A DNA stretch of 48,401 nt from the IMG/VR virus record IMGVR_UViG_3300045996_003364, positions 1 to 48,401 of that record, one strand, 5' to 3'. Every line of letters begins with the position of its first letter. Position 1 is the stretch's first letter. This document shows, in pieces, positions 7,379 through 24,413 of this stretch. The position numbers were made by a program, and so were the translations under genes. Source of the DNA: a virus. Below the pieces are notes generated by a model. It did no database searches. It was not told the origin of the DNA and saw nothing but the letters and a program-made list of their open reading frames with translations.

Positions 7379-9100
7379 TTACCCCTCCCAAGGGTACAGA
7401 GTCTGCCGCCATCGTGACTTCTGCTTCGGACGGCGATGCTTCAGCACCTTCTTCCCGTACAGGCGGAAGAGGTAGAGGCTGATCCCGGCGCTCATGACCC
7501 GGTCGTCGTTGCAGCCGTCCTGGGCGCGCGGCGACGGGAGGCTCTTCGCGGTCGAGAACGTGCGTAGCTCATGGTCAAGCTCGGGGCTGATCCACGGGCA
7601 GATCTCCTCCCTGATCCACTCCTCGAGGTGGTTGATCACGGTGGGCCGCGTGTCGCCGTTCATGGGGAAGCCGAAGTCCTGCCGCTCGCGCGGCTTCACG
7701 CCCTGGTCGGGGCCGACGTTGTGCCGGTAGAGGCGCTGCCACGGCTTGCGGCCGCGGGTGCCGTCCCTGAGGGCGATGATGACGGCGGTGCCGTTGCCGC
7801 CCTGGTTCTCGACGGCGATCAGCGGCTCGGAGCGCATGCCGCTGACGACCTGATACCAGCGGGCGCAGTAGTAGAGATCCTTCGCGAACACGTCCTCGCC
7901 GACCTTCGCGTGGTATTCCGCCACCCATTCCCCGGTGCCGAGGTCGATGACATGCGCGCTGGAGAAGTCGGTGCCTTTACCGGTCGCGCTGTCGGCTGCG
8001 AACGCGTACGTGTGGCCTGCCTGCGGCTCGACAATGATGCGCCATTCGCCGCTGGAAGTCTTCGTCGGCTTTGCGACCGGAGATCCACCCCGGATTTCCT
8101 CGACGAAGCGCAGCCTGTAGAGCAGTTCCATCCCCTGGTCGCGCCACCGCTTCCGGTAGGCGTTCAGCTTGTCGAGGTCGAACCAGCACTGGCCGGTGTT
8201 GATGAACGCCTCTTCGGCGGTCGTCGGGTACTGCTCGGCCCGGTCGACCGGCGGCAGGCTCGAGGCCTTCTGGTCGTACCAGGCCTGGTCGCGCTTCGGG
8301 TGGCGGAACCAGCCGAGGAACCTCGCCTTGATGTTCATCGTGAGCGCGTTCACCCACAGGTAGTGGAAGAAGTTGCCCTCGCCGGTCAACTCGTTCGACA
8401 TGCCGTTGGCGGTCGAGATCGCGATGATGCGGCCGCCGCCGTCGATCACCGGGAAGACGCCCTTCCAGATCGAGCGGGCGAAGTCCTGGCGGGCGAACTC
8501 GTCGAGGATCACCAGGGCGGCCGTCTCGCCGTGTCCGGCCTTCTCGGTGGCGGGGAGCGCGAGGATCGTCGACTTCTTCCCGCTGGCCCGGTGCGTCCAC
8601 TCGATCTCCTGCGAGGGGTCGCCGCCACGGGCGGGCTTGGTCACCTCGACGTGTTCGGTGAGGTAGTGCGGCATGCTCTTCCACATGCCCCAGATGCGGG
8701 CGACAACCTTCTTCGCCTCCTCCTCGTTCACCGACAGGATCAGCACGCGGGTGCCTGGCCGGAACAGCGCCGTCCAGAGCGCGAGGAGGGCGGCGAGCCA
8801 GGTGATGCCGATCTGCCGTGCTTTCAACTCGAGCGAGAGCGTGTTCGTCAGCCAGTCGTCGAGAAGCTCGCGGTGCCAGAACCAGCCGGTCGCGCGCGGC
8901 TCCTCGTCGACCTCGGCCGCCTCCTCCTCGTCGAGCAGGTCGAAGTCGAACTCCTCGCCGGTCTTCGCGTCGATGCAGTGGACGTAGTGGCCGAGATAGG
9001 CGGGATGCTCGGTGACCTTCCGCAGCCGCGCCTCACGGACGGCAAGCTCGTACTCGAGATCCTCGTCGGGGACGCGTGTGTCGGCGACGATCGTCGTCAT
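7379..9100 (-). CDS. terL: Terminase large subunit
   Basis: This 573-aa protein is the ATPase-nuclease motor that packages DNA into the procapsid. The Walker A-like segment KARQIGITW lies at residues 93-101, Walker B LVILDEF at 196-202, and the coupling motif AISTANG at about 227-233. The C-terminal RNase H-like nuclease domain carries acidic residues D370 (AFAADSATGKGTD), E431 (AVENQGG) and a late DD (QDGCNDDRVMSAG, near 546). The length is typical. The ATG is the first gene of the leftward virion operon, and the 44 bases upstream must hold promoters for both this gene and the divergent gene at 9145. Confidence 0.95.
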   Translation of the reverse strand: MTTIVADTRVPDEDLEYELAVREARLRKVTEHPAYLGHYVHCIDAKTGEEFDFDLLDEEEAAEVDEEPRATGWFWHRELLDDWLTNTLSLELKARQIGITWLAALLALWTALFRPGTRVLILSVNEEEAKKVVARIWGMWKSMPHYLTEHVEVTKPARGGDPSQEIEWTHRASGKKSTILALPATEKAGHGETAALVILDEFARQDFARSIWKGVFPVIDGGGRIIAISTANGMSNELTGEGNFFHYLWVNALTMNIKARFLGWFRHPKRDQAWYDQKASSLPPVDRAEQYPTTAEEAFINTGQCWFDLDKLNAYRKRWRDQGMELLYRLRFVEEIRGGSPVAKPTKTSSGEWRIIVEPQAGHTYAFAADSATGKGTDFSSAHVIDLGTGEWVAEYHAKVGEDVFAKDLYYCARWYQVVSGMRSEPLIAVENQGGNGTAVIIALRDGTRGRKPWQRLYRHNVGPDQGVKPRERQDFGFPMNGDTRPTVINHLEEWIREEICPWISPELDHELRTFSTAKSLPSPRAQDGCNDDRVMSAGISLYLFRLYGKKVLKHRRPKQKSRWRQTLYPWEG

Positions 9101-12243: not shown

Positions 12244-12863
12244 TTGAACCACGTCCGCAGCGGGTAGAGCGCGCTGGTGGGGACGACGAACGGGTGGCTG
12301 GCGACCCCTTCGCGGTGGAACGTCTTGCGGTACTCGGGGATCTGCACCTCGCCCGCCCTGACCCAGCCGTTGCAGCGCCAGTGGGTGCCTCCCTCATGGA
12401 CGATCAGGAAGAAGTTGCGCTTGGCTGGCTCCTTCTCGCCGACGATCAGGTTCCACGACCCGGCCCTCGGTGTGAACGCGCTGCAGTTGTTGCCGAGGTT
12501 GCCGTGGGCGCGCGCAGCCGTGTGGGTGGTGGCCGCACCGAACGGCAGGCCGAGCATGAGGCAGGCGGCGTACTGCGCGAAGACGGTGCGGGCCTCCTCC
12601 TCGAGTGTGCGGCGGGCGCCGTGCTTCTCGTCGAGATCCCACTGCTTGGCGCGTTCGATCCGGTCGCGCGCGACGCGGCGGGCGCGGCTCATGAGGAAGC
12701 CGGGTAGCTCGACGACGTCCATGGCGTCCCACTCGCTGCCGGGGAAGCCGAGCCTCCACTCGCGCATCTCCGCCATCGCCCGGGTCGCCCGTTCGCGCTC
12801 CTCGGGGCTGCCGTGCTTCAAGATCAGGTCGAAGTAGCGGGCGTGCACCTCGTTGGTGGTCAC
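12240..12863 (-). CDS. Conserved-looking hypothetical protein
   Basis: This is a 207-aa soluble protein, helical in its N-terminal half (HARYFDLILKHGSPEERERAT, then RARRVARDRIERAKQWD) and mixed in its C-terminal half, which holds TPRAGSWNLIVGEKEPAKRNF and aromatic strands. Its start and stop overlap both neighbours. A few histidines and cysteines are scattered without a clear metal site. I do not recognise it. The C-terminal half resembles a small beta-rich binding domain. Confidence 0.7.
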   Translation of the reverse strand: MTTNEVHARYFDLILKHGSPEERERATRAMAEMREWRLGFPGSEWDAMDVVELPGFLMSRARRVARDRIERAKQWDLDEKHGARRTLEEEARTVFAQYAACLMLGLPFGAATTHTAARAHGNLGNNCSAFTPRAGSWNLIVGEKEPAKRNFFLIVHEGGTHWRCNGWVRAGEVQIPEYRKTFHREGVASHPFVVPTSALYPLRTWFK

Positions 12864-13584: not shown

Positions 13585-13928
13585 GCTTCTCCTCCGCATC
13601 TCCGGCACGGGTTGCCGGGTGAGCAGCGCCAGTGGTAGTCCCTGAGGCTGCAGTTGACGTCGAGCTTCTTCGGCAGGCCGATGCCGGTGAGGATCTCGGC
13701 GACCTCCTCTTCGGTCGCTCCCGCCTCCTCGGCGGCGTCCTCGAGCATGCGGAGGCCGTCGCCGAGGCCTGGCGGGGTCGGCATGGTGATCTCGCTGGCG
13801 GCCTGCCTGATCAGCCATTCGATGTGCTGGTTGAGGCTGACGCCGCGGGCGGCCGCCTGCTCGACCGCCATCTGGCGGACGACGTCGGGGACGCGCGCCC
13901 CCAGCTGCGCTTTGCGGTCACGCCCCAC
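13581..13928 (-). CDS. Ribbon-helix-helix-like DNA-binding protein
   Basis: This is a 115-aa protein starting at GTG. The first 45 residues (LGARVPDVVRQMAVEQAAAR, then GVSLNQHIEWLIRQA) match the Arc/MetJ/CopG-type ribbon-helix-helix pattern: a strand, then two helices. A helical acidic middle is followed by a C-terminal cysteine cluster (NCSLRDYHWRCSPGNPCRRC). It could be a transcription regulator binding as a dimer. No operator can be assigned to it, though the palindromes at 15342-15378 and 16506-16533 are candidates. Confidence 0.7.
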   Translation of the reverse strand: MGRDRKAQLGARVPDVVRQMAVEQAAARGVSLNQHIEWLIRQAASEITMPTPPGLGDGLRMLEDAAEEAGATEEEVAEILTGIGLPKKLDVNCSLRDYHWRCSPGNPCRRCGGEA

Positions 13929-15555: not shown

Positions 15556-16200
15556 CTACCCCCCGGGGGCTTCGCGCGGCTGCTCTTGATCCGGGTCGCC
15601 CACCGCACGCAGCTGCCTCGCCGCACGCCGCTCACGCACCAGCGCAAGCAGGTCAGCAGTAGGCATGGCCTTGATGTCGCCCTCGCTCTCAGGGGGCAGC
15701 GACACCGTGCGCTCAGTGGGCATGCCCTCAGCCTGGTTGATGTACGGCCCCACCAGCTTCGCCGCCTGCACATCCCCAGTAGCAGCAGCGTCGAGCAGCG
15801 TGTGCACCGTCGCCCGCAGCTGCACATGCTTCTCCGCCATCGCCTCACGAATCACGTCGCGGCTGGAGAGGCGGGCCAACCGTGCCCTCTCCTCGGCTGA
15901 GATACGGCGTTCCCGCATCGCTTCCGCCTTGGCTCGCGCGCCTTCGCTGGGATCCAGTAGTCCCGAGTGCGCTCCGCAGAGGACGTGCGAGTGCAGCGCC
16001 GTCACCGTGCACCGGCCGCCAGCGCGTCTCACGGCGATGCAGCGGCGCTTCGGCGACCCCTCGAGATGCGCAGGATCGGTCAAGCCGGACGTGTCGACCT
16101 CGCTGTCGATCGCGATGTCCAGAGGCACCGAGTCCAGCATGTCCTGCCAGGACGGAGGATCCGCTAGCGGCTCGGCCGTCGTGCCCTCGACCTCACTCAC
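15556..16200 (-). CDS. Small-terminase-like protein (tentative)
   Basis: This is a 214-aa protein starting at GTG. Residues 50-80 hold a compact cysteine/histidine knuckle (RRCIAVRRAGGRCTVTALHS and VLCGAHSG), of the type seen in a number of phage small terminases and HTH proteins. A helical basic region (about 85-125, RAKAEAMRERRISAEERARL) and a long helix follow, then a Pro/Arg tail. Small terminases bind the packaging site and often have this helical basic character. It is, however, far from the large terminase, so the name is tentative and another DNA-binding role is possible. Confidence 0.5.
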   Translation of the reverse strand: MSEVEGTTAEPLADPPSWQDMLDSVPLDIAIDSEVDTSGLTDPAHLEGSPKRRCIAVRRAGGRCTVTALHSHVLCGAHSGLLDPSEGARAKAEAMRERRISAEERARLARLSSRDVIREAMAEKHVQLRATVHTLLDAAATGDVQAAKLVGPYINQAEGMPTERTVSLPPESEGDIKAMPTADLLALVRERRAARQLRAVGDPDQEQPREAPGG

Positions 16201-16291: not shown

Positions 16292-16434
16292 AGCGCCTGG
16301 TACGCCTGCACCGCAAGACCAGCGGCGATCAAGCTCACCGCGAGCGCGTACAGCACGTCGTCGCGGCCCGTGTCGAAGAACGCGGCGATGGCCGCCAGCA
16401 CCGCCGCCAACACGAACAAGATCAGAGCGAGCAT
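16288..16434 (-). CDS. Small two-span membrane protein
   Basis: This is a 48-aa protein with GGAGG six bases before the ATG. Two hydrophobic spans (LALILFVLAAVLAAIAAFF and VLYALAVSLIAAGLAVQAY) flank a charged DTGRDD turn. It has the shape of a mini-holin or of the small membrane proteins common in actinophages. It is the first gene of the leftward operon from the divergent control region. Confidence 0.65.
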   Translation of the reverse strand: MLALILFVLAAVLAAIAAFFDTGRDDVLYALAVSLIAAGLAVQAYQAL

Positions 16435-16472
16435 CACGACCTCCTAGACCGGGGGAAGCGCATCGTTGAGCC

Positions 16473-16478
16473 ATTCTA
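16473..16478 (-). promoter_or_regulatory. Leftward -10 box candidate
   Basis: TAGAAT on the leftward strand lies 39 bases before the ATG at 16434. The -35 position (CAGCGG, 17 bases upstream) is poor, so an activator would be needed if this is a promoter. Confidence 0.4.
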
Positions 16479-16505
16479 CCTGCCCCCGCGGACGCCCGCT
16501 GCCCC

Positions 16506-16533
16506 CCGAACACTTTGTAAGGATTTTGTTCGG
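16506..16533. promoter_or_regulatory. 7-base inverted repeat, possible operator
   Basis: CCGAACA (16506-16512) and TGTTCGG (16527-16533) are exact complements around a 14-base AT-richer spacer. They lie between the leftward and rightward promoter candidates, where a repressor could control both. Confidence 0.5.
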
Positions 16534-16550
16534 ATGTGCCCTCGAGGGGG

Positions 16551-16577
16551 TTGACAGGGTGTCACGGGTGTTACAAC
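16551..16577 (+). promoter_or_regulatory. Rightward promoter candidate
   Basis: A perfect -35 TTGACA (16551-16556) is followed after a 15-base spacer by TACAAC (16572-16577). The spacer is shorter than the usual 16-18, but the -35 match is exact and the box faces the punctuated gene array that starts at 17079. Confidence 0.55.
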
Positions 16578-16859
16578 GAGCAGGCAACCCCGACCCACCG
16601 GATCTGGCCCACAGGCCCCCGGCTCGCCCCATACCCCGCGAGCTTCATGTACCCGAGTGACGTCCGTGTTGCACCGCAGGCCCGGGTGACCACTCCCCGC
16701 GGAAGCGGCCCTACCTAGCCAGCCTCCTCCTACAGGGGCGCTGCGCTCGAAGCGGTGTTGAGCCGCGTCCGACCGAGGTCGGGGTAGAGCGCACGTTCAC
16801 GGAGTAGATGAGAGCCTCCCGGGCAGTGCGACCCGGGGAGAACACACATTTACGAACCA

Positions 16860-17052
16860 GACAACGGTGACTCTGAAGACCGGACACGGGGCGCGCTTCG
16901 GCGCGTCGGCTGACGTTGTCGAGCAGTGGTTCGTGGGAACAGCCGAAACGACGGGAGCAGCGCCCCCGTCACCAAGCTCGAACGCCGATGGGCCTCGAGC
17001 AGCGCGCACGACGACAGCCCCGGATGACTCACCTCTTCGGAGGTGCCGGGGC
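16860..17052 (+). ncRNA. Structured leader of the rightward array
   Basis: GACAACG (16860-16866) pairs with CGTTGTC (16914-16920), enclosing a GCGCGC-TTCG-GCGCGT hairpin (16891-16906). A second hairpin pairs GCCCCGG (17017-17023) with CCGGGGC (17046-17052) and CACCTC (17030-17035) with GAGGTG (17040-17045) around a TTCG loop. It ends at the first GTCAGTC motif. It looks like an untranslated leader; function (processing, antitermination) is not known. Confidence 0.45.
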
Positions 17053-17078
17053 CGTCAGTCAACCCCGAAGGAGCCACC

Positions 17079-17216
17079 ATGCGCACCGCACTCGCACTCG
17101 AGATCGCCTTCTTCACGCTCGTCCAGGCCAACTGGGAGCCGTGGGAAGAGCAGGCCTGGGACGAGTACATCGCCGACGTCGAGGCAGGCGCGACGAGCGT
17201 CCGGTTCCCCGCGTGA
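17079..17216 (+). CDS. Tiny protein of the punctuated array
   Basis: This is a 45-aa protein (MRTALALEIAFFTLVQANW, then acidic) with GAAGGAG before the ATG and the first motif copy. The N-terminal 20 residues are hydrophobic, perhaps a membrane or amphipathic helix. Its stop lies in the loop of the first hairpin. Function is unknown. Confidence 0.7.
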   Translation: MRTALALEIAFFTLVQANWEPWEEQAWDEYIADVEAGATSVRFPA

Positions 17217-17247
17217 GCGGGGAGTCAGTCAACCCCAGGAGGAGATC

Positions 17248-17535
17248 ATGAACCTCAAGCTCGAGTACCTCGGCACCAGCTGGGCCTTCGGCGGCGACCT
17301 GTTCACGCTCACCGACAGCAGCGGCGACCAGGCACGCGTCTACGTCGACTCGATCGGCGAGACGTGGGTCGACGTCCGGCGCATCCCCGAGGGCGGCTAC
17401 TTCCACAGCGAGCGCGTCACCGCCTACCGCGTCTTCGACAGCGCCGCAGCTGAAGAGCAGCGCCTGCTCGCCCGCGGCTTCGGCGACAAGCGCATCGCCC
17501 CGTACGCCCACCGCGTCCGCGAGCGCGGCCTGTAG
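17248..17535 (+). CDS. Small protein of the punctuated array
   Basis: This is a 95-aa protein (MNLKLEYLGTSWAFGGDLF) with beta-rich alternating residues up to about residue 60 and a basic helical C-terminus. It has no cysteines. The ATG follows an AGGAGG site and motif copy at 17224. No family is recognised. It resembles small mixed alpha/beta adaptor proteins. Confidence 0.75.
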   Translation: MNLKLEYLGTSWAFGGDLFTLTDSSGDQARVYVDSIGETWVDVRRIPEGGYFHSERVTAYRVFDSAAAEEQRLLARGFGDKRIAPYAHRVRERGL

Positions 17536-17577
17536 CAGCGCCCCTCACGGGGCGTCAGTCAACCCAGGAGGCACACC

Positions 17578-17754
17578 GTGAAGAAGATCGAGTACAAGAT
17601 CACGTTCGGCGACGGCACACACCTGAAGGTGACCGTCGAGGCACGCGGCATCAACACCGGCGCCGCGAAGGCCCTCGGCCACGGCCTGCGCTTCGCCAAG
17701 CGGCAGCGCAAGGAGTTCCACAGCATCGAGTTCAGCCAGGTCATCGCCTTCTAG
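17578..17754 (+). CDS. Small basic protein of the array
   Basis: This is a 58-aa protein starting at GTG with motif copy and AGGAGG upstream. Its beta strand pair (IEYKITFGDGTHLKVTVEA) is followed by a basic helix (AKALGHGLRFAKRQRKEF). A nucleic-acid role is possible from charge only. Confidence 0.7.
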   Translation: MKKIEYKITFGDGTHLKVTVEARGINTGAAKALGHGLRFAKRQRKEFHSIEFSQVIAF

Positions 17755-17785
17755 GCGAGCCGCCCCGGGAGACACCGGGGCGTCA

Positions 17786-18008
17786 GTCGATCCCAGCACC
17801 GCGAGGTACCGTCCAGCCAAGGGCCAGCCTGACGGCTAACGACCACGTCTCGAGTAGCTCTCGAGCGATCCCTGAACGAAGCTGGAACCACCCGACAGCG
17901 TACGGGCGAGTGAAGCGGTAACAGCCCGCGAGGGCGATCCGAGAGCATCCGGGGAGTGCGCACGATCCGGGGAGGGTAGGAGCGCCTGAGCGGGCCGCTG
18001 GGATCGAC
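17786..18008 (+). ncRNA. Structured RNA candidate closed by a 12-base stem
   Basis: GTCGATCCCAGC (17786-17797) and GCTGGGATCGAC (17997-18008) are exact complements enclosing 199 bases with no protein-like frame. Inside are AGCC-TGAC-GGCT (17826-17837), CTCGAG-TAGCT-CTCGAG (17849-17865), CCAGC/GCTGG (17813-17817 with 17881-17885) and CGGGC/GCCCG (17903-17907 with 17924-17928). ATCCGGGGAG occurs twice near the 3' end. GTCAGTC motifs stand on both sides, so the element takes the place of a gene in the array. The class is unknown. Confidence 0.65.
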
Positions 18009-18032
18009 GTCAGTCAACCCCGAGGAGGATCC

Positions 18033-18341
18033 ATGTTCAAGCGCACGCTCCTGAAGACGAAGGCCGCCGACATCCCCGTCGGCGCGCACGAAGTGCGACT
18101 CAGCATCAGCCTCAACGACGGCGGCAGCGGCTGCTACGGCCCGCAGGCCCTGCTCTTCCTGCGCGGCCCGAACGGGTCGCCGAACGGCACCGGCCCGAAG
18201 ACGTGGCCGCTCTTCCGCAAGCTCACGCTGAAGGTGCGGCTGCCGCACGTCAGCTGGGCGACCGGCTACCGCTTCCGCCGCGTCGGCGGGCTGCGGGCCT
18301 ACAAGCTCGTCTACGGCCTGTACGACCGCGCCCTCTCATGA
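18033..18341 (+). CDS. Small basic protein of the array
   Basis: This is a 102-aa protein with Gly-rich loops (SLNDGGSGCYGPQALLFL, then GPNGSPNGTGPKTW) and a basic beta-rich end. Its pattern of hydrophobic strands is like a small beta barrel. Motif copy 18009 and GAGGAGG precede the ATG. Function is unknown. Confidence 0.75.
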   Translation: MFKRTLLKTKAADIPVGAHEVRLSISLNDGGSGCYGPQALLFLRGPNGSPNGTGPKTWPLFRKLTLKVRLPHVSWATGYRFRRVGGLRAYKLVYGLYDRALS

Positions 18342-18373
18342 GGGCGTGTCAGTCAACCCCGAGGAGGAGCATC

Positions 18374-18592
18374 ATGACGCTCGAGCAGTACAAGTTCCGC
18401 GGCAGCGAGGTCGCCACCCAGGTCGCAGCAGCGATGGAGGCGATCCCCGAGGGCCGCGAGATCGTCACCATGTCGGCTGGCGAGAACATGATCGTCCGGC
18501 TCGCCCTCGCCCCCCAGGAGATCTCCGTCACCGACGAGATCATCGAGTACGCCTGGACGGGCGACGGCTTCGTCGAGATCGGCGTCCTGTAG
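18374..18592 (+). CDS. Small acidic protein of the array
   Basis: This is a 72-aa protein with an N-terminal helix (TLEQYKFRGSEVATQVAAAM) and beta strands (EIVTMSAGENMIVRLALA). It is acidic and has no cysteines. Motif copy 18349 precedes it, with the site GAGGAGG. Function is unknown. Confidence 0.75.
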   Translation: MTLEQYKFRGSEVATQVAAAMEAIPEGREIVTMSAGENMIVRLALAPQEISVTDEIIEYAWTGDGFVEIGVL

Positions 18593-18653
18593 CACACAGC
18601 CCCGCTACGTTCGGAGAACCGTGGCGGGGGTCAGTCAACCCGAGGAGGATCCG

Positions 18654-18941
18654 ATGAACGAGCAGCAGAACGAGCGGCGGCTCGAGCGCGAGGCGCAGCA
18701 CTGCCTCGGCGTCCTGTACCACCCCGACGCCAAGCGCGACGGCAGCGACTCCGCGTGCAAGGTCGAGGTGTACGACGCCGAGAACGACCGGGCGGGCCAC
18801 TTCAAGGTGGTCGTGCCCTCCGTCGACGCCGACGGCCTCAGCGACGACGAGGCCCTCGAGGTGCACCCCGCGACGCTCGCCACCGACGTGATCGGCGAGC
18901 AGGCACCCGCGTGGGAGATCGCGGACTGCACCGCCTGGTAG
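18654..18941 (+). CDS. Small acidic protein of the array
   Basis: This is a 95-aa protein with a charged helical N-terminus (NEQQNERRLEREAQHCL), followed by a beta-rich acidic domain. Two or three cysteines are spread along the chain. The ATG is taken at 18654 because it alone follows the motif copy (18630) and ribosome site; earlier in-frame starts would lie in the motif. Function is unknown. Confidence 0.75.
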   Translation: MNEQQNERRLEREAQHCLGVLYHPDAKRDGSDSACKVEVYDAENDRAGHFKVVVPSVDADGLSDDEALEVHPATLATDVIGEQAPAWEIADCTAW

Positions 18942-18983
18942 CAGCGCGCCTTCGGGCGCGTCAGTCAACCCAAGGAGGCACCG

Positions 18984-19292
18984 ATGCTCATCGCCAACTA
19001 CGCCCCGTTCGGGGGCGAGCTTGTCGTCACGCTCGACCACGACACCGCCCTGGCGCTGCACGGCCAGCTGGTGCGCGCCGTCGACATCGGCATCGTCGGC
19101 GACCGCTTCATGTCGATCCTCGAGCGGTACATCGCGAAGGGCGACCTGAGCGAGTACGACCGCCAGCCGGTGGGCCACCGCGCCCCCGACGGCGAGCAGC
19201 CGATCGAGGCGTTCGGCCCGTACGACCCGGTCGGCGACGGCTACGCGCCAGGCGACCCGAAGGGCCTGCCCAACGACGCTGGGAGGTGGTAG
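18984..19292 (+). CDS. Small protein of the array
   Basis: This is a 102-aa protein with an alpha/beta N-terminal half (ANYAPFGGELVVTLDHDTAL) and a proline/glycine-rich acidic tail. Motif copy 18960 and AAGGAGG lie before the ATG. Function is unknown. Confidence 0.7.
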   Translation: MLIANYAPFGGELVVTLDHDTALALHGQLVRAVDIGIVGDRFMSILERYIAKGDLSEYDRQPVGHRAPDGEQPIEAFGPYDPVGDGYAPGDPKGLPNDAGRW

Positions 19293-19379
19293 ATGACGAA
19301 GTCGAACAGCATCTAACCCGGCTCATGACCGGCCCCCTGCTGCGGTGGGGGGCCGCGTCAGTCAACCCGAGGAGGAGGC

Positions 19380-19565
19380 ATGTCCGAGCAGGAGCAGTTC
19401 GTCGTCGAGGTCGTCGAGGACGAGACGGGCGACATCGTCTCGCAGTCGAAGCCGACCTACCGCCGCCGCGCGGAGAAGATCGAGGACGGCTACATGATCA
19501 ACCTGAACCATGAGCGGTACAGCACCCGCATCGTCCCGGCCAGCGAGGCGGGCGAGAAGGTCTGA
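19380..19565 (+). CDS. Small acidic protein of the array
   Basis: This is a 61-aa protein, acidic at its N-terminus (EQEQFVVEVVEDETGDIV) and then basic (KPTYRRRAEKIEDGY), probably a beta hairpin followed by a helix. Motif copy 19357 lies 23 bases before the ATG. Function is unknown. Confidence 0.7.
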   Translation: MSEQEQFVVEVVEDETGDIVSQSKPTYRRRAEKIEDGYMINLNHERYSTRIVPASEAGEKV

Positions 19566-19611
19566 ACGCGCGCCCTCCGGGGCGTCAGTCAACCCGAAAG
19601 GAGACAGGCCC

Positions 19612-20595
19612 ATGCCTGCTTACTTCGACCGCGGATTCTTCGTCCGCACCCCCGCCTGGCACCAGCTGGGCACCGTCCTCGAGGACTTCCCGGGCCGCGA
19701 GGAGGGCATGCGCCTCGCCGGTCACGACTTCGAGGTTCTCGAGCGGCAGCTGAAGGTCGAGAAGCCGAACGACTGGCCGGGAGCGCAGCCGATGGCTGTC
19801 CCGCTGAAGGGCTGGAAGGCCCTCGAGCATTCGACGGAGGGCAACGTGCTGAACGTCGTCCGCTCGAGCTACGAGATCATCCAGAACTCGGTCGGCTGGG
19901 ACATCGTCGACGCGATCGTCGGCGAGGGCGCCAAGTACGAGACGGGCATCACCCTGAAGGACGGTGCTGTCTGCCTCGTCACGGCGTGGCTCGACGAGCC
20001 GGTGACCATCTCCGGCGACGACAGCGTCACCCTGCCCTACCTCGTCGTCCGCTGGACGCACGACGGCTCAGGCTCCCTCGTCGCACGCTCGACGTCGGTG
20101 CGGGTCGTCTGCGCCAACACCGACGAGGCGTCGGCGGCGGAGGCTCGGCGCAACAAGACCGAGTTCGTCTTCCGCCACACGAAGCACGTCTCGAAGCGGA
20201 TCGAGGACGCCAAGCTGGCGCTCCGCGGTGTCCGCGACGACTTCGCCGCCTTCACGGCGCTGTCGGAGGAGCTTGCCCGCATCCCGGTCACCCGGGAGCA
20301 GCGGGAACTCTTCGTGACGTCGTTCCTGCCGATGCCGCCGGAGGCGCTGATCTCCGACCGCGTCGTCTCGAACGTCGAGACGGCCCGGGCAGCCGTCCGG
20401 AACCTGTTCAACGGCCCGACGATCCCCGAGGCCCACAAGCTGACCGCCTACGGGCTGCGGCTGGCCGGGATCGAGTACCTCGACCACCTGCGGGGCTACC
20501 GCTCGACCGACACGTACGTCGGTCGGCAGCTGCTCCGCACCGAGCCTGCCAAGGTGAAGCTGACGGGCTTGATCAAGGAGGTCGTGAAGGCGTAG
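19612..20595 (+). CDS. DUF932 family phage/plasmid-like protein
   Basis: This is a 327-aa protein with the marks of the DUF932/TIGR03299 family known from phages and plasmids: PAWHQLGTVLEDF at the N-terminus, VVRSSYEIIQNSVGWDIVDAI near residue 85, a beta-rich centre with TLPYLVVRWTHDGSGSL, and a long helical C-terminal half. The family has no settled biochemical function; it is often beside replication or defence genes. It is the largest of the early array genes. Motif copy 19584 sits 28 bases before the ATG, slightly further than the rest because of an extra ACAGGCCC. Confidence 0.85.
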   Translation: MPAYFDRGFFVRTPAWHQLGTVLEDFPGREEGMRLAGHDFEVLERQLKVEKPNDWPGAQPMAVPLKGWKALEHSTEGNVLNVVRSSYEIIQNSVGWDIVDAIVGEGAKYETGITLKDGAVCLVTAWLDEPVTISGDDSVTLPYLVVRWTHDGSGSLVARSTSVRVVCANTDEASAAEARRNKTEFVFRHTKHVSKRIEDAKLALRGVRDDFAAFTALSEELARIPVTREQRELFVTSFLPMPPEALISDRVVSNVETARAAVRNLFNGPTIPEAHKLTAYGLRLAGIEYLDHLRGYRSTDTYVGRQLLRTEPAKVKLTGLIKEVVKA

Positions 20596-20623
20596 CACCC
20601 GGGGCGCTTCGGCGCCCCGTCAG

Positions 20624-20699
20624 TCCCCCCACCGTCGACCGGTAGGCGCCCGAGGCCGTCCCCTAGCGGCCCCGCTGCGACCGAGCGCAGGTGGGGGGA
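20624..20699 (+). ncRNA. Structured RNA candidate closed by a 10-base stem
   Basis: TCCCCCCACC (20624-20633) and GGTGGGGGGA (20690-20699) are exact complements around 56 bases containing CCCTAGCGGCCCCGCTG. GTCAGTC motifs abut it on both sides (20619 and 20700), as for the elements at 17786 and 21946. No protein-like frame is present. Confidence 0.55.
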
Positions 20700-20723
20700 G
20701 TCAGTCAACCCGAGGAGGCACAC

Positions 20724-20969
20724 ATGGCAAGCGCGGCGAAGGAGGCCCTCGAGATCACCCTCGAGCGGCTGATCGGCGCGTACGACGCCGGAGCGCGCGA
20801 CGACGGCCACCAGCCGGAGCGGTGGGACATCCGCGAGGACTTCGGCGACCTCGTCGCTTCGACCCGCTGCTCGCGCTGCGGGAAGGACGCCATCGTGCGC
20901 GTCGGCGACGACCGCACGTGGAGGGCCGGGAAGATGCGGCTCGACCCCTGCCCGATCGCCCCCGAGTAG
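20724..20969 (+). CDS. Small protein with CxxC
   Basis: This is an 81-aa protein with a long N-terminal helix (AAKEALEITLERLIGAYDAG) and a CSRCGK motif near residue 50, with another cysteine near the end (LDPCPI). It may bind zinc. Its stop lies in the loop of the hairpin 20957-20975. Motif copy 20700 is 24 bases before the ATG. Function is unknown. Confidence 0.75.
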   Translation: MASAAKEALEITLERLIGAYDAGARDDGHQPERWDIREDFGDLVASTRCSRCGKDAIVRVGDDRTWRAGKMRLDPCPIAPE

Positions 20970-21001
20970 GGGGCGTCAGTCACCCAACCGAAGGAGGAGC
21001 C

Positions 21002-21205
21002 ATGCCCGCTGATCGCACCACGTTCGAGATCCCGGCCACACTCGGCCGGTCGGGGCTGTTCAAGTTCGACCTGAAGGGCATCTCGACGCAGGCCCTCAGC
21101 GACCTGGCCGTCGACGTCGTCGTCGAGGTCGCGAAGGTGCGCGGCGTCTCGCCCGTCCAGCACATGCGGGACATGATCGAGGCGGCGCCGCCGGAGTACC
21201 ACTGA
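21002..21205 (+). CDS. Small protein of the array
   Basis: This is a 67-aa protein, beta-rich early (TTFEIPATLGRSGLFKFDLK), with a helical end (ALSDLAVDVVVEVAKVRG). The preceding motif is the variant GTCAGTCACCCAACC (20975). Function is unknown. Confidence 0.7.
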   Translation: MPADRTTFEIPATLGRSGLFKFDLKGISTQALSDLAVDVVVEVAKVRGVSPVQHMRDMIEAAPPEYH

Positions 21206-21249
21206 ACCAGCGCCCCCACGGGGGCGTCAGTCAACCCGAAGGAGGCTCC

Positions 21250-21471
21250 ATGTACGAGATCGTGATGTCGACCGGCGACCGCGCCGAGGCCGAGACGATC
21301 GAGGCGGCCCTGGTCGCCGCCCGGACGATGGCCGAGGATGTCGAGTGGGAGGCGTACGTGACGGCGGCACGCCGGGACGAGCGCGACTTCCCCTTCCTCG
21401 TCCCCGTCCTGAACCACCACCTCAACGAGAGGCGGCACGACGCACGCGTCCACCAGCCGCTCCGGCCATGA
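21250..21471 (+). CDS. Small protein of the array, coupled to a membrane protein
   Basis: This is a 73-aa protein with a helix (GDRAEAETIEAALVAARTMA) and a beta/basic end. The stop overlaps the ATG of the next gene (ATGA), one of two places in the array where two genes share one motif. Motif copy 21226 precedes it. Function is unknown. Confidence 0.7.
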   Translation: MYEIVMSTGDRAEAETIEAALVAARTMAEDVEWEAYVTAARRDERDFPFLVPVLNHHLNERRHDARVHQPLRP

Positions 21472-21587
21472 CCGGCGTCGAGGTGCTGGTGCTGTGCATC
21501 TGTGTCGCCCTCGTCTCGTTCTGCTCCGGTGCCATCTACGGCTACGAGCAGCGCGAGCGGGAGGAGTTCGAGGAGCGCCCCCGCTGA
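21468..21587 (+). CDS. Tiny single-span membrane protein
   Basis: This is a 39-aa protein with one span (VEVLVLCICVALVSFCSGAI) followed by a charged tail (YEQREREEFEERPR). It is coupled to the preceding gene by ATGA overlap and has no motif of its own. Its stop falls in the hairpin loop at 21576-21594. Function is unknown. Confidence 0.65.
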   Translation: MTGVEVLVLCICVALVSFCSGAIYGYEQREREEFEERPR

Positions 21588-21619
21588 GGGGGCGTCGGTC
21601 ACCCAACGAAAGGAGCAGC

Positions 21620-21922
21620 ATGGACGCAGACAAAGCTCGGCCTCTGATCGAGGCTGAGCTTCAGCGTCAGGGGTTCAGCGCCAAGGAGTGGCGTGAGGAT
21701 CCCGACGACGGCCTCACCGCCGTCATCGGCCGGTTCGAGGTCGTCCACGACGCGCTCGAGGACAGCGGCATCTACCTCGGTGACGAGGGCGTCCTCGAGG
21801 CCAGCGTGGTCGGCGCCGAGGAGTACCACAACGTCCGCGTCTGGCTCGGCTTCCGGGCCGACGGGTTGGACTCGGCGCTCGAGGTCGACGACATGTCGGC
21901 GCTCGAGCCGCTCGACGAGTAG
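21620..21922 (+). CDS. Small acidic protein of the array
   Basis: This is a 100-aa acidic protein with an N-terminal helix (DADKARPLIEAELQRQGF), then alternating strands, rich in Asp and Glu. The preceding motif is the variant GTCGGTCACCCAACG (21594). Function is unknown. Confidence 0.75.
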   Translation: MDADKARPLIEAELQRQGFSAKEWREDPDDGLTAVIGRFEVVHDALEDSGIYLGDEGVLEASVVGAEEYHNVRVWLGFRADGLDSALEVDDMSALEPLDE

Positions 21923-21945
21923 CACGCGCCCCTTCGGGGGCGTCA

Positions 21946-22010
21946 GTCCCCGGCCGTTTCCGAGGGGAAGGGCCGGAAGTGGGTTCTGCTGCGCAGCGGC
22001 GGCCGGGGAC
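21946..22010 (+). ncRNA. Structured RNA candidate closed by a 10-base stem
   Basis: GTCCCCGGCC (21946-21955) and GGCCGGGGAC (22001-22010) are exact complements around 45 bases with a further internal pair of GC-rich segments. GTCAGTC motifs stand at 21942 and, as ATCAGTC, at 22011, so this is the third case of an element framed by the motif instead of a gene. Confidence 0.55.
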
Positions 22011-22025
22011 ATCAGTCACCCTCGT

Positions 22026-22031
22026 TACACT
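22026..22031 (+). promoter_or_regulatory. -10-like box TACACT
   Basis: GTTACACT (22024-22031) lies 26 bases before the TTG start of the HTH-like gene. The sequence recurs at 25774-25779 before another gene, so it may be a promoter box or a protein-binding site. No good -35 is seen. Confidence 0.3.
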
Positions 22032-22056
22032 GTCACGGTCGAGACAGGAGGACGAC

Positions 22057-22263
22057 TTGAAGCATCCCGAGTACGTCGGCACCCATGAGATCCTCGAGAT
22101 CCACGGCGTGCCCCGCCATCGTGTCATCCGGTTCATGCGGCGCGGCCTGTGGCCGCCGCCGATCGCCGACCTGCACTGCGGCCTCGTCTTCAAGGGCGAG
22201 CCGGTCGCACGTGCGGTGCAGCGCCTCCGCTCCAGCGGCCAGCTGGAACGTCAGTCAACCTGA
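22057..22263 (+). CDS. Small helix-turn-helix-like protein, TTG start
   Basis: This is a 68-aa protein starting at TTG with CAGGAGG upstream. The pattern EYVGTHEILEIHGVPRHRVI followed by RFMRRGLWPPPI and LVFKGEPVARAVQRL looks like a MerR/excisionase-type winged helix: a helix-turn-helix for DNA contact followed by a wing. It is the best regulator candidate in the array. Its last codons are encoded by the next gene's GTCAGTCAACCT motif, so the motif is inside the coding frame. Confidence 0.7.
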   Translation: MKHPEYVGTHEILEIHGVPRHRVIRFMRRGLWPPPIADLHCGLVFKGEPVARAVQRLRSSGQLERQST

Positions 22264-22273
22264 GGAGGCACAG

Positions 22274-22510
22274 ATGCACCAGAAGTACACGCTCCGCGCG
22301 ATCCCCGACGGCGCCCCCGAGAGCGTCTCCGGCACCGACCTGACCCGCCCGCTCGCCCCGGCCCCGTCGTACTTCACTGCGGCCATCTACCGCGAGGACG
22401 GCAGCTGGGTCTTCCGGTTCAAGCCGGAGCAGCTGAAGACGCTGGTCGGCAAGGGGATGTCGGAGGCCGAGGAGATCGTGGCCGCCCTGAACGTCCCGCC
22501 GCTGTCATGA
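22274..22510 (+). CDS. Small protein of the array
   Basis: This is a 78-aa protein, beta-rich at the N-terminus (MHQKYTLRAIPDGAPESV) with a helical C-terminus (EQLKTLVGKGMSEAEEIVAAL). The motif copy (22250) lies within the preceding gene. The stop overlaps the next ATG (ATGA). Function is unknown. Confidence 0.75.
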   Translation: MHQKYTLRAIPDGAPESVSGTDLTRPLAPAPSYFTAAIYREDGSWVFRFKPEQLKTLVGKGMSEAEEIVAALNVPPLS

Positions 22511-22683
22511 GCGGCACCCTGCCCGCGAAGCTCCGCACGTGGGCGGCGAACCGGGAGCGCAAGAATCTCGACGGACGCCTGCTCCGCCAGGCAGCCGACG
22601 AGATCGAGCAGCTGCGCGAGCGGAAGCGAGAACTCGAGCAGCGCCTGAAGGTGCTGAACGAGCGCGATGGGCGCCCCGTCTAG
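22507..22683 (+). CDS. Small coiled-coil protein
   Basis: This is a 58-aa protein, nearly all helix, highly charged (NLDGRLLRQAADEIEQLRER and KRELEQRLKVLNERD), likely a dimeric coiled coil. It shares the motif copy of the previous gene through ATGA coupling. Its stop lies in the hairpin loop at 22671-22689. Function is unknown. Confidence 0.7.
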   Translation: MSGTLPAKLRTWAANRERKNLDGRLLRQAADEIEQLRERKRELEQRLKVLNERDGRPV

Positions 22684-22713
22684 GGGCGCTCGTCAGTCAA
22701 CCCGGAGGCTGTC

Positions 22714-22968
22714 GTGACCAACGAGGAGATCGAGGCGGCCCAGGCGGCGCTCGATCGAGGTGCGGCCGCCGGTCGAGTCGCGTTCTACAGGGCGGAGATC
22801 CGGCACACGAAGTCCGAGCGCGTCTTGGACTGCCACTGCCGGATCCCGCCCCGGATGGAGTACCGCTACGCCGTCTGGAAGGTCGTCGGCGTCGACGGTG
22901 TGATGCAGTCGACGACGTGCGACTGGCACATGCGCATCGGCGAAGGCACCACCAGCCGCTCCGACTAG
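22714..22968 (+). CDS. Small protein of the array with two Cys/His pairs
   Basis: This is an 84-aa protein starting at GTG. A helical acidic start (NEEIEAAQAALDRGAAAGR) is followed by a domain with LDCHCRIPPRMEYRY and TTCDWHMRIG that looks like a small zinc site of CxC..CxxH type. Motif copy 22692 precedes it. Nucleic-acid binding is possible; function is unknown. Confidence 0.7.
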   Translation: MTNEEIEAAQAALDRGAAAGRVAFYRAEIRHTKSERVLDCHCRIPPRMEYRYAVWKVVGVDGVMQSTTCDWHMRIGEGTTSRSD

Positions 22969-22997
22969 GGGCGGCGTCAGTCAACCCAGGAGGAGCG

Positions 22998-23909
22998 ATG
23001 CCACGCATCAAGTACAAGACGTTCAACTTCCGCCCGAAGACGCAGGACGTCATCGAGCGGGCCAACGCGATCCTCAGGGAGTACGGTGCCCAGGGCTTCG
23101 ACCTGACGCTCAGGCAGCTGTACTACCAGTTCGTCGCGCGCGGCGAGATCGCGAACAAGCAGAGCGAGTACAACAAGCTCGGCTCGATCGTGAACGACGC
23201 CAGGCTGGCGGGCGAGATCGACTGGAACCACATCACCGACCGCACCCGCTACGTCCGCAGCTTCCCGTCGTGGGACGACCCCGCCTCCTTCATGGAGAGC
23301 GTGGCCGGTGGCTACGCGATCGACCTGCTCGAGGGGCAGGAGAAGCACGTCGAGGTGTGGGTCGAGAAGGACGCCCTCGTCTCGGTCGTCGAGCGGGCAT
23401 GCCGGGACTTCACCGTCCCGTTCCTGTCGTGCCGCGGCTACGTGTCGCAGTCCGAGATGTGGAGGGCCGGACGGCGGTGCGCACGGGAGGTCGAGAACGG
23501 CAAGGACGTGGTGATCCTGCACCTCGGCGACCACGACCCGTCCGGGATCGACATGACCCGCGACATCCGGGAGCGCCTCGGCGACTTCGTCTACGCGCAC
23601 ACCCGGCAGCAGATCGTCGTCGACAGGATCGCGCTGACGATGGCGCAGATCGACCAGTACGACCCGCCCCCGAACCCGGCGAAGCTGACCGACTCGAGGG
23701 CCAACGACTACATCGCCCGCTACGGCGACGAGTCGTGGGAGCTTGACGCTCTCGAGCCGAGCGTGATCGTCGACCTGATCACCAGCAGCCTGAACGACCT
23801 GCTCGACACCGAACTGCTCGACGACCGCCGCGCGCGGGAGGAGCAGGAGGGCGAGATCCTGCGGGCGATCAGCGACCGGTGGGACGAGGTCGTCGACCTG
23901 CTCAGCTGA
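22998..23909 (+). CDS. Topo VI-A/Spo11-like TOPRIM protein
   Basis: This is a 303-aa protein, the last of the array. An N-terminal winged-helix-like part (residues 35-85, DLTLRQLYYQFVARGEIANK and LGSIVNDARLAGEIDW) precedes a TOPRIM domain with the acidic residues E123 (VWVEKDAL), D178 and D180 (LGDHDPSGIDMTRD). This combination occurs in Spo11/Topo VI A-subunit-like proteins and the related Toprim proteins of mobile elements and anti-plasmid systems. It could cut or nick DNA for replication or processing, but no catalytic tyrosine is assigned with confidence. A partner topoisomerase B subunit is not seen. The motif copy is at 22976. Confidence 0.8.
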   Translation: MPRIKYKTFNFRPKTQDVIERANAILREYGAQGFDLTLRQLYYQFVARGEIANKQSEYNKLGSIVNDARLAGEIDWNHITDRTRYVRSFPSWDDPASFMESVAGGYAIDLLEGQEKHVEVWVEKDALVSVVERACRDFTVPFLSCRGYVSQSEMWRAGRRCAREVENGKDVVILHLGDHDPSGIDMTRDIRERLGDFVYAHTRQQIVVDRIALTMAQIDQYDPPPNPAKLTDSRANDYIARYGDESWELDALEPSVIVDLITSSLNDLLDTELLDDRRAREEQEGEILRAISDRWDEVVDLLS

Positions 23910-23915
23910 ACGACA

Positions 23916-23935
23916 GAGGGGCCGTGAGGCCCCTC
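23916..23935 (+). terminator. Terminator-like hairpin after the array
   Basis: GAGGGGCC (23916-23923) and GGCCCCTC (23928-23935) form a perfect 8-base stem with a GTGA loop, followed by GTCGGTCTTCCCG. It faces the end of the converging three-gene set at 23970. Confidence 0.65.
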
Positions 23936-23969
23936 GTCGGTCTTCCCGCGCGACTGTGTTCTCCCCGAG

Positions 23970-24413
23970 CTAGGCGGCGTCGCCTCCGCGCTTCGGCCGC
24001 TCCGAGTCGCGAACGCCAGCGACCCGGCCCGTCCCCTCGACCCGCTGGAACTCCGTGCGGGCGGCCCGCACCTGCTGCTCGCGAGCGATGACGTCGGTCG
24101 GCAGCCCGTCGGGGCCGCTCTCCTTCTCCATCCGCTCGACGAGCGCGGCGGGCGAGGACGTCACGACGTGCGCTTCGTGCGCCGCCACCGTGTCGCCCTG
24201 CTCGAGCTTGCCGATCTTCTCCGGCTCCGCGGGGCCGACCTCCGCGAGCTTCTCGTCCGGCAGGATCGGCGACTCCGGCGACGCGATGTCCGCCTTGATC
24301 GCGGTCAGAACGCCGTCCGTCTCCTGACGGAGATCCTTCGTGTTGACGCGCTCACCCGAGGCCCTCGAGGTCGAGGTCTTCTTGGTGGCCGTGCGCTTCT
24401 TTGCAGGCGCCAT
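23970..24413 (-). CDS. Basic-tailed protein of the inverted cassette
   Basis: This is a 147-aa protein with a histone H1-like N-terminus (PAKKRTATKKTSTSRAS) and an acidic helical centre. Such a basic Lys/Ala/Ser tail can bind DNA or RNA. Start ATG 24413 with GAAGGAGG upstream. It lies at the end of a leftward three-gene set inside rightward genes; its role is unknown, possibly virion or DNA condensation. Confidence 0.7.
   Translation of the reverse strand: MAPAKKRTATKKTSTSRASGERVNTKDLRQETDGVLTAIKADIASPESPILPDEKLAEVGPAEPEKIGKLEQGDTVAAHEAHVVTSSPAALVERMEKESGPDGLPTDVIAREQQVRAARTEFQRVEGTGRVAGVRDSERPKRGGDAA

Follow-up and report, generated by a model that had tools for sequence, protein, structure and literature searches.

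Why should nearly every small gene in a stretch of viral DNA be preceded by the same short module? The question is raised by IMG/VR virus record IMGVR_UViG_3300045996_003364, a 48,401-base record that was analysed at its full length and is called the window here; like the genomes compared with it, it is metagenomic. Between positions 17054 and 23942 of the window lies an array of small genes at whose boundaries a hairpin, a fixed 12-base motif (GTCAGTCAACCC) and a Shine-Dalgarno site recur. Our results suggest that this module may be a boundary element acting at the level of RNA, most likely a processing site at which an early transcript would be cut into gene and non-coding RNA units by a partner matched to each lineage; we put the probability of this reading at roughly 0.4. 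It draws on flush hairpins of free sequence, on the P1 helices that enclose non-coding intervals, on array ends that carry a copy and no gene, on the lack of copies where genes overlap at ATGA, on the restriction to one strand and on the module of a sister lineage.

A fixed word and a free hairpin

The motif array is real. There are 13 exact copies of GTCAGTCAACCC in the window, all on the + strand and all within 17054-22987, where dinucleotide shuffles give an expectation of 0.00, and the word with which the motif opens, GTCAGTC, is present 18 times in the forward orientation and 0 times in reverse. A search of the window with up to 3 mismatches to the motif found 50 sites against 43.5 expected, which is the chance level; since this search is uninformative alone, its count was not used and four weaker copies were accepted from position and hairpin only. 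With these, 17 genes are preceded by a copy (13 exact, 1 with 1 mismatch, 1 with 2 and 2 with 3; Table 1). An earlier note, made from the sequence alone, had described such a module before 17 genes, and this number was confirmed, with the qualification that three further copies have no gene and that two genes overlapping their upstream neighbours at ATGA (~21468 and ~22507) have no copy. The spacing that it gave, 22-28 nt from the first base of the motif to the start codon and usually 24, holds for 16 of the 17 genes, with a mode of 24, and fails for the gene with a TTG start at 22057, which lies 46 nt away. Its remark that the stop codon often falls in the hairpin loop is true of about one-third of cases, in which the codon is within or at the edge of the loop; otherwise it is upstream of the hairpin.

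Five other viral contigs (G001-G005) carry the same array. They were obtained by pattern scans of a viral collection, the tighter scan yielding the array contigs and broad scans of viral and genome contigs giving mostly chance matches among the hits listed; a further contig (G006, L252), with a single motif copy and AT-richer DNA, was left out. Together the six genomes contain 87 forward copies of GTCAGTC, nearly all inside arrays, and a handful of reverse copies. Gene content differs so strongly between the arrays, with 8 ortholog pairs among the motif-preceded genes of the six genomes, that the motif must be regarded as kept over different genes. At 76% of the 87 sites a stem with a score of at least 11 is flush with the start of GTCAGTC, compared with 7% of positions in the same arrays, and this signal falls off on either side of zero offset. 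The 68 good stems comprise 48 distinct sequences, most commonly with a loop of four bases, and unrelated hairpins stand before the same motif at orthologous genes (for example, the window gene at 22274 and that at G004 13423, whose proteins are 90% identical). These observations indicate that selection retains the helix and its position, not the sequence of the hairpin. In local-context folding, the bases just before the motif were mostly paired (5-15% unpaired where most protected) and motif bases A4, A8 and A9 were more than 80% unpaired. No intrinsic terminator (a GC-rich hairpin with a T tract) was found in 16400-24100, the stem being followed by the fixed word instead, and a consensus scan gave no sigma-70 promoters at the modules.

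Copies without a gene

Three copies in the window (17782, 20619 and 21942) are not followed by a gene; each is followed by a structured non-coding segment that extends to the next copy and folds better than its shuffles (z about -2.9 to -3.6). Across the six genomes, a P1 helix of at least 6 bp was present in 9 of 24 non-coding intervals (ten if the interval at G002 7108, split by a false site in this count, is added) and in 0 of 69 gene intervals. This helix begins with the fifth base of the motif, or in one interval with the sixth, and ends just before the next motif, so that the GTC of the motif pairs with a GAC directly preceding the next copy. The pair at motif base 6 is T-A, T-G or C-G; motifs that read GTCAGCC or GTAAGCC have GGC as their partner; and the unpaired spacer between the helices is reduced to GTNA. 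The first of these cassettes has a relative in G002 (L248 7112-7232), and the hairpin that precedes it at 17782 has a close counterpart in G004 (9485, L250 reverse complement) that is followed directly by a gene. In three arrays (window, G002 and G005) the last gene is likewise followed by a hairpin with the motif and by no further gene on its strand; the hairpin at that place in G004 is a different one. The module marks the ends of units at least as much as the starts of genes. At the end of the G002 array a minus-strand HNH-endonuclease-like gene (L003 1780-2220; G002 12266-12701) lies between two motif copies, placed as if it had been inserted into a boundary module.

These copies bear directly on the proposal that the module serves translation initiation, in the sense of the start-associated sequences (SAS) of mycobacteriophages, with the hairpin shielding the ribosome site from the gene upstream and the word assisting in the recruitment or placement of ribosomes or of an initiation factor of the phage. 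The fixed distance to the start codon of 16 of the 17 genes, with a Shine-Dalgarno site in between, speaks for this proposal, as does the prediction that AACCC is the most unpaired part of the motif (mean of 0.61 versus 0.38 for random 7-mers). However, the copies after the last gene in three arrays and those before the cassettes have neither gene nor ribosome site, the motif is drawn into a helix before the cassettes, and the overlapping genes do without it. A purely translational role, which the earlier note had put forward among others, does not fit because of the copies without genes, and we consider a translation-initiation module to be an unlikely explanation; the further suggestions of that note, mRNA processing between genes or the binding of a phage partner, fit better.

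The leader RNA and the sister lineage

A conserved structured leader RNA, identified by alignment, lies upstream of the first array copy in 6 of 6 GTCAGTC genomes. In its 3' domain the loop of a helix, Pa, can pair with the stretch after a second helix, Pb, to give a pseudoknot, and the pairing differs across genomes (GCGC/GCGC, UGCGC/GCGCA, UGCGUG/CGCGCA and GCAC/GUGC). Helix Pb also varies and yet pairs (GCTCGA/TCGAGC, GCCTG/CAGGC, CCTCGG/CCGAGG and others), the automatic helix search having retained only its inner part in G005, and the last hairpin, S1, keeps its pairing while its sequence differs in every one of the six genomes. A pattern for a leader segment, block B, matched only array genomes, apart from coding chance matches (L253-L260), which were rejected. 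With Rfam 15 there was no gathering match in the window, and permissive thresholds brought up no credible hit in the window array, L001 or L002; a SAM-IV candidate at L001 4175-4290 was rejected, as it lies inside a gene and scores below the cut-off. A pairing within the leader of block A TGAC with the GTCA of CCCGTCACC, seen in the window fold, was likewise rejected because it fails in G002 and G003. Among named phages there were no convincing relatives of the leader DNA and the adjacent gene.

A search with the protein encoded beside the leader, on the opposite strand, found two more distant genomes, L272 and L274, both without GTCAGTC. Nearly every gene in these sister genomes is preceded by a variable hairpin, CTCCAGG, a second variable hairpin and then CACACCCACGAAGGAGG (also given as CACCCACGAAGGAG), the first helix being present at 20 of 21 sites and the second at 19 of 21. 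The sister leaders are homologous to the window leader over long stretches, and the sister module also stands before orthologs of motif-bearing genes, among them the topoisomerase gene (window 22998), DUF932 genes and a number of small ones. On this comparison, one of the two lineages has exchanged the word throughout its array, a change that points to some partner with which the word has to match. The relatives in which the earlier note had proposed to seek the motif comprise, then, five with an identical motif and two more distant ones in which the same architecture, orthologous genes included, is built on another motif.

Several further observations concern these genomes. Small hairpins are inserted between GTCAGT and (T)AACCCC at G005 3575 and 4151 (L251 reverse complement) and at G001 16191 (L247, array sense), twice with AGTCA in the loop, a layout that matches the two-hairpin form of the sister lineage. 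The module before one gene ends differently in both sister genomes, with a conserved stretch, TGTTGCGCTATGCC...CCTGGGGCC, in place of its usual end (L272 reverse complement 13800-13890; L274 reverse complement 8890-8984); this stretch is possibly another non-coding RNA. A more distant DUF932-bearing virus (L244 5600-11500) has another repeated intergenic module, made up of a hairpin, (A/T)(C/T)GCGG, a second short hairpin, ACACTTTGGAGGTGTG and the start codon. A match of the sister-leader pattern in L276 was rejected as a coding chance match. The protein encoded divergently from the leader on the minus strand of the window (15565-16200) is conserved in all eight genomes and has the pattern C-x(n)-C-x(n)-C-x2-H; it had no family match and no named-phage match, and we take it to resemble actinophage small-terminase-like proteins.

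As units of the transcript, genes and non-coding RNAs alike end in a helix whose sequence is free and which is set against a fixed word (GUCA-GUC here, and in the sister group CUCCAG); ACCC and a Shine-Dalgarno site then open the next gene, and the word is uniform within a lineage and different between lineages. From this structure and position, and from the concerted replacement of the word, we infer cleavage, a partner and possibly a role for the leader. A polycistronic early transcript would be cut at or next to the word, so that a hairpin would protect the 3' end of each unit, each gene would begin with a short leader containing a ribosome site of its own, and the same cutting would release the non-coding RNAs that modules bracket. 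The agent that cuts or binds would be matched to the word, and hence specific to the lineage. Candidates are a protein of the phage, a nuclease of the host working with an adaptor, and the conserved leader RNA, in which a complement of the motif is present. Several points weigh against processing sites. Much the same pattern would be expected in the sequence if the module were bound but not cleaved, or if it regulated translation; a Shine-Dalgarno site accompanies nearly every gene copy at constant spacing, which suits a translational role; and neither a nuclease nor an RNA-binding protein could be identified as the partner. As for the leader, it is complementary to the motif over only 4-5 nt, or 7 in two genomes, and in the sister lineage these bases are taken up by the second hairpin as well.

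It is also conceivable, though improbable in our estimation, that the leader RNA acts as a guide that base-pairs with the word at every boundary and directs cutting or translation, word and guide changing together between lineages. A related proposal, which we hold to be less probable still, is global riboregulation, whereby the leader, in the transcript or as a released small RNA, would pair with all motif copies and switch the translation or stability of the array together. The pentamer TGACT, complementary to AGTCA, is invariant at two places of the leader in 6 of 6 genomes (in block A, ~190 nt before the motif, and in the loop of S1), and block B was matched in array genomes alone, coding chance matches aside. 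The sister lineage has the motif CTCCAGGC(C/T), and in both of its genomes the block A pentamer is AGCCT with its flanks conserved; AGCCT is complementary to the AGGCT variant of that motif and pairs with four bases of the commoner form, which suggests a compensatory change, albeit one change over a short match. Against riboregulation, the pairing amounts to only 4-5 bp, and to just 4 with most motif copies of the sister group; the two lineages between them offer a single compensatory change that is informative; the sister leader showed no recognisable second complement; and, on geometric grounds, a fully formed S1 would keep its loop from reaching the abutting motif in cis.

Some of the same findings could be explained at the level of DNA if the modules were patches of homology for the exchange of gene cassettes, like the boundary sequences proposed for lambdoid phages, which are short conserved sequences between exchangeable genes and for which we know of no hairpin rule, leader RNA or lineage-wide replacement. 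The very different gene content of the arrays and the presence or absence of cassettes exactly between copies (window 17782 versus G004 9485) are as this account would predict, but it requires neither free-sequence hairpins, nor P1 covariation with a T-G pair, nor a single orientation, and the orthologs carry the module of their own lineage, so that modules do not travel with genes between lineages; we regard it as very unlikely. Sites acting on transcription elongation, whether stoperator-like repressor sites or antitermination or termination signals with a put/nut-like leader, have little chance of being the answer, since, although the copies are asymmetric, one-directional and intergenic and a structured leader heads the long operon, L5-type stoperators have no match in the array, there are no T-tract terminators at the hairpins, and DNA sites would need no hairpins and would leave the spacing to the start codon free.

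What start-associated repeats do in phages has been an open question since 2011, and the present layout, with position-fixed hairpins of free sequence, gene-less copies, bracketed non-coding units, a conserved leader and the words of two lineages, makes function testable; the two words allow word-swap experiments. If the modules are processing sites, they would offer a compact route from one promoter to many separately translated and separately stable units, could be a tool for building operons and would mark undescribed phage non-coding RNAs. The features of the array are collected in Table 1. Its last gene (window 22998-23906) matches phage DNA topoisomerase family phrog_6247, and the nearest matches to the region that bear a name are relatives of this gene in phages of Curtobacterium and Microbacterium.

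Table 1. Leader, module copies and non-coding cassettes of the array (window positions; the motif column gives the first base of each copy and its mismatches)
Feature	Position	Strand	Motif	Gene start or remark
Candidate leader promoter, TTGACA ... TACAAC, 15-nt spacer	16551..16577	+		by eye only; strict sigma-70 scan listed none
Conserved structured leader RNA (block A; pseudoknot domain 16944-17010; last hairpin S1)	16855..17053	+		alignment; fold z = -2.99
TGACT of block A, complement of motif AGTCA	16868..16872	+		invariant in 6/6 GTCAGTC genomes
S1, last leader hairpin, GCCCCGG/CCGGGGC	17017..17052	+		loop TGACT at 17025-17029, in 6/6 genomes
Motif	17054..17065	+	17054 (exact)	17079
Hairpin TCCCCGC-GTGA-GCGGGGA + motif	17206..17235	+	17224 (exact)	17248
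Hairpin GCCCC-TCAC-GGGGC + motif	17540..17565	+	17554 (exact)	17578
Hairpin GCCCCGG-GAGACA-CCGGGGC + GTCAGTC	17762..17788	+	17782	no gene after
Non-coding cassette 1	17786..18008	+		P1 GTCGATCCCAGC/GCTGGGATCGAC, from motif base 5 to next motif; fold z = -3.0
Motif	18009..18020	+	18009 (exact)	18033
Hairpin GCGCCCTC-TCAT-GAGGGCGT + motif	18328..18359	+	18348 (exact)	18374
Hairpin CCCCGCTACG...CGTGGCGGGG + motif	18600..18641	+	18630 (exact)	18654
Hairpin GCGCC-TTCG-GGCGC + motif	18946..18971	+	18960 (exact)	18984
Hairpin CGGCCCCCTGC-TGCG-GTGGGGGGCCG + motif	19330..19368	+	19357 (exact)	19380
Hairpin GCCC-TCCG-GGGC + motif	19572..19595	+	19584 (exact)	19612 (DUF932 gene)
Hairpin GGGGCGC-TTCG-GCGCCCC + GTCAGTC	20601..20625	+	20619	no gene after
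Non-coding cassette 2	20623..20699	+		P1 TCCCCCCACC/GGTGGGGGGA; fold z = -3.56
Motif	20700..20711	+	20700 (exact)	20724
Hairpin GCCCCC-GAGTA-GGGGGC + motif variant	20958..20986	+	20975 (2)	21002
Hairpin GCCCC-CACG-GGGGC + motif	21212..21237	+	21226 (exact)	21250
Hairpin GCCCCC-GCTGA-GGGGGC + GTCGGTCACCCA variant	21577..21605	+	21594 (3)	21620 (ATG)
Hairpin GCCCC-TTCG-GGGGC + GTCAGTC	21928..21948	+	21942	no gene after
Non-coding cassette 3	21946..22010	+		P1 GTCCCCGGCCGTT/GGCGGCCGGGGAC; fold z = -2.86
Degenerate motif ATCAGTCACCCT	22011..22022	+	22011 (3)	22057 (TTG), 46 nt away
Motif; last T opens TGA stop of upstream gene	22250..22261	+	22250 (1)	22274
Hairpin GGGCGCCCC-GTCTA-GGGGCGCTC + motif	22669..22703	+	22692 (exact)	22714
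Hairpin GCCGCTCC-GACTA-GGGGCGGC + motif	22955..22987	+	22976 (exact)	22998 (topoisomerase-like gene)
Array end: hairpin GAGGGGCC-GTGA-GGCCCCTC + GTCGGTC	23916..23942	+		no + strand gene after

Relation to known systems

The SAS of cluster K mycobacteriophages, GGGATAGGAGCCC, is 13 bp long and, with the Shine-Dalgarno core inside it, sits 3-7 bp from the start codon; about half of the copies have an inverted repeat just upstream (ESAS) with a consensus that varies by subcluster, and the function is unknown (PMC3203893). These were the relatives named in concept by the earlier note, and the comparison is apt: both are short, asymmetric, one-orientation repeats ahead of many small non-structural genes. 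The sequence is different, with 0 matches to the SAS consensus at up to 2 mismatches in the window, and here the word is upstream of a separate ribosome site, its first base 22-28 nt before the start. The ESAS repeats are fixed in sequence, with little support for RNA pairing (PMC3203893), whereas the present hairpins vary freely in sequence and retain their pairing; of 8 SAS in TM4, 2 have a flush hairpin. Copies at array ends and around non-coding RNAs, as seen here, are not described for SAS. The stoperators of cluster A phages are DNA-binding repressor sites that likewise occur as many short, asymmetric, one-directional copies (PMC9283540). The array differs from these in its hairpins, in its fixed spacing to start codons and in its sequence, the stoperator consensus (GGTGGMTGTCAAG, 13 bp) having 5 matches with 2 mismatches in the window and none in the array.

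A functional analogy is offered by the plastid intercistronic element IEE, a structured element between genes that splits a polycistronic transcript into translatable units and for which cleavage has been demonstrated (PMC2230500). This likeness is one of function only, as the sequences and organisms are unrelated and cleavage in the present array is something that we infer. Transcripts are likewise split at structured elements by tRNA punctuation in mitochondria and by cleavage at CRISPR repeat hairpins. Unlike in all three of these systems, the hairpin is here free in sequence and it is a short word outside the hairpin that is fixed. Within the open-licence literature in which the comparison was made, the array is one of repeated modules between small phage genes, and there is a real chance that it represents a new mechanism.

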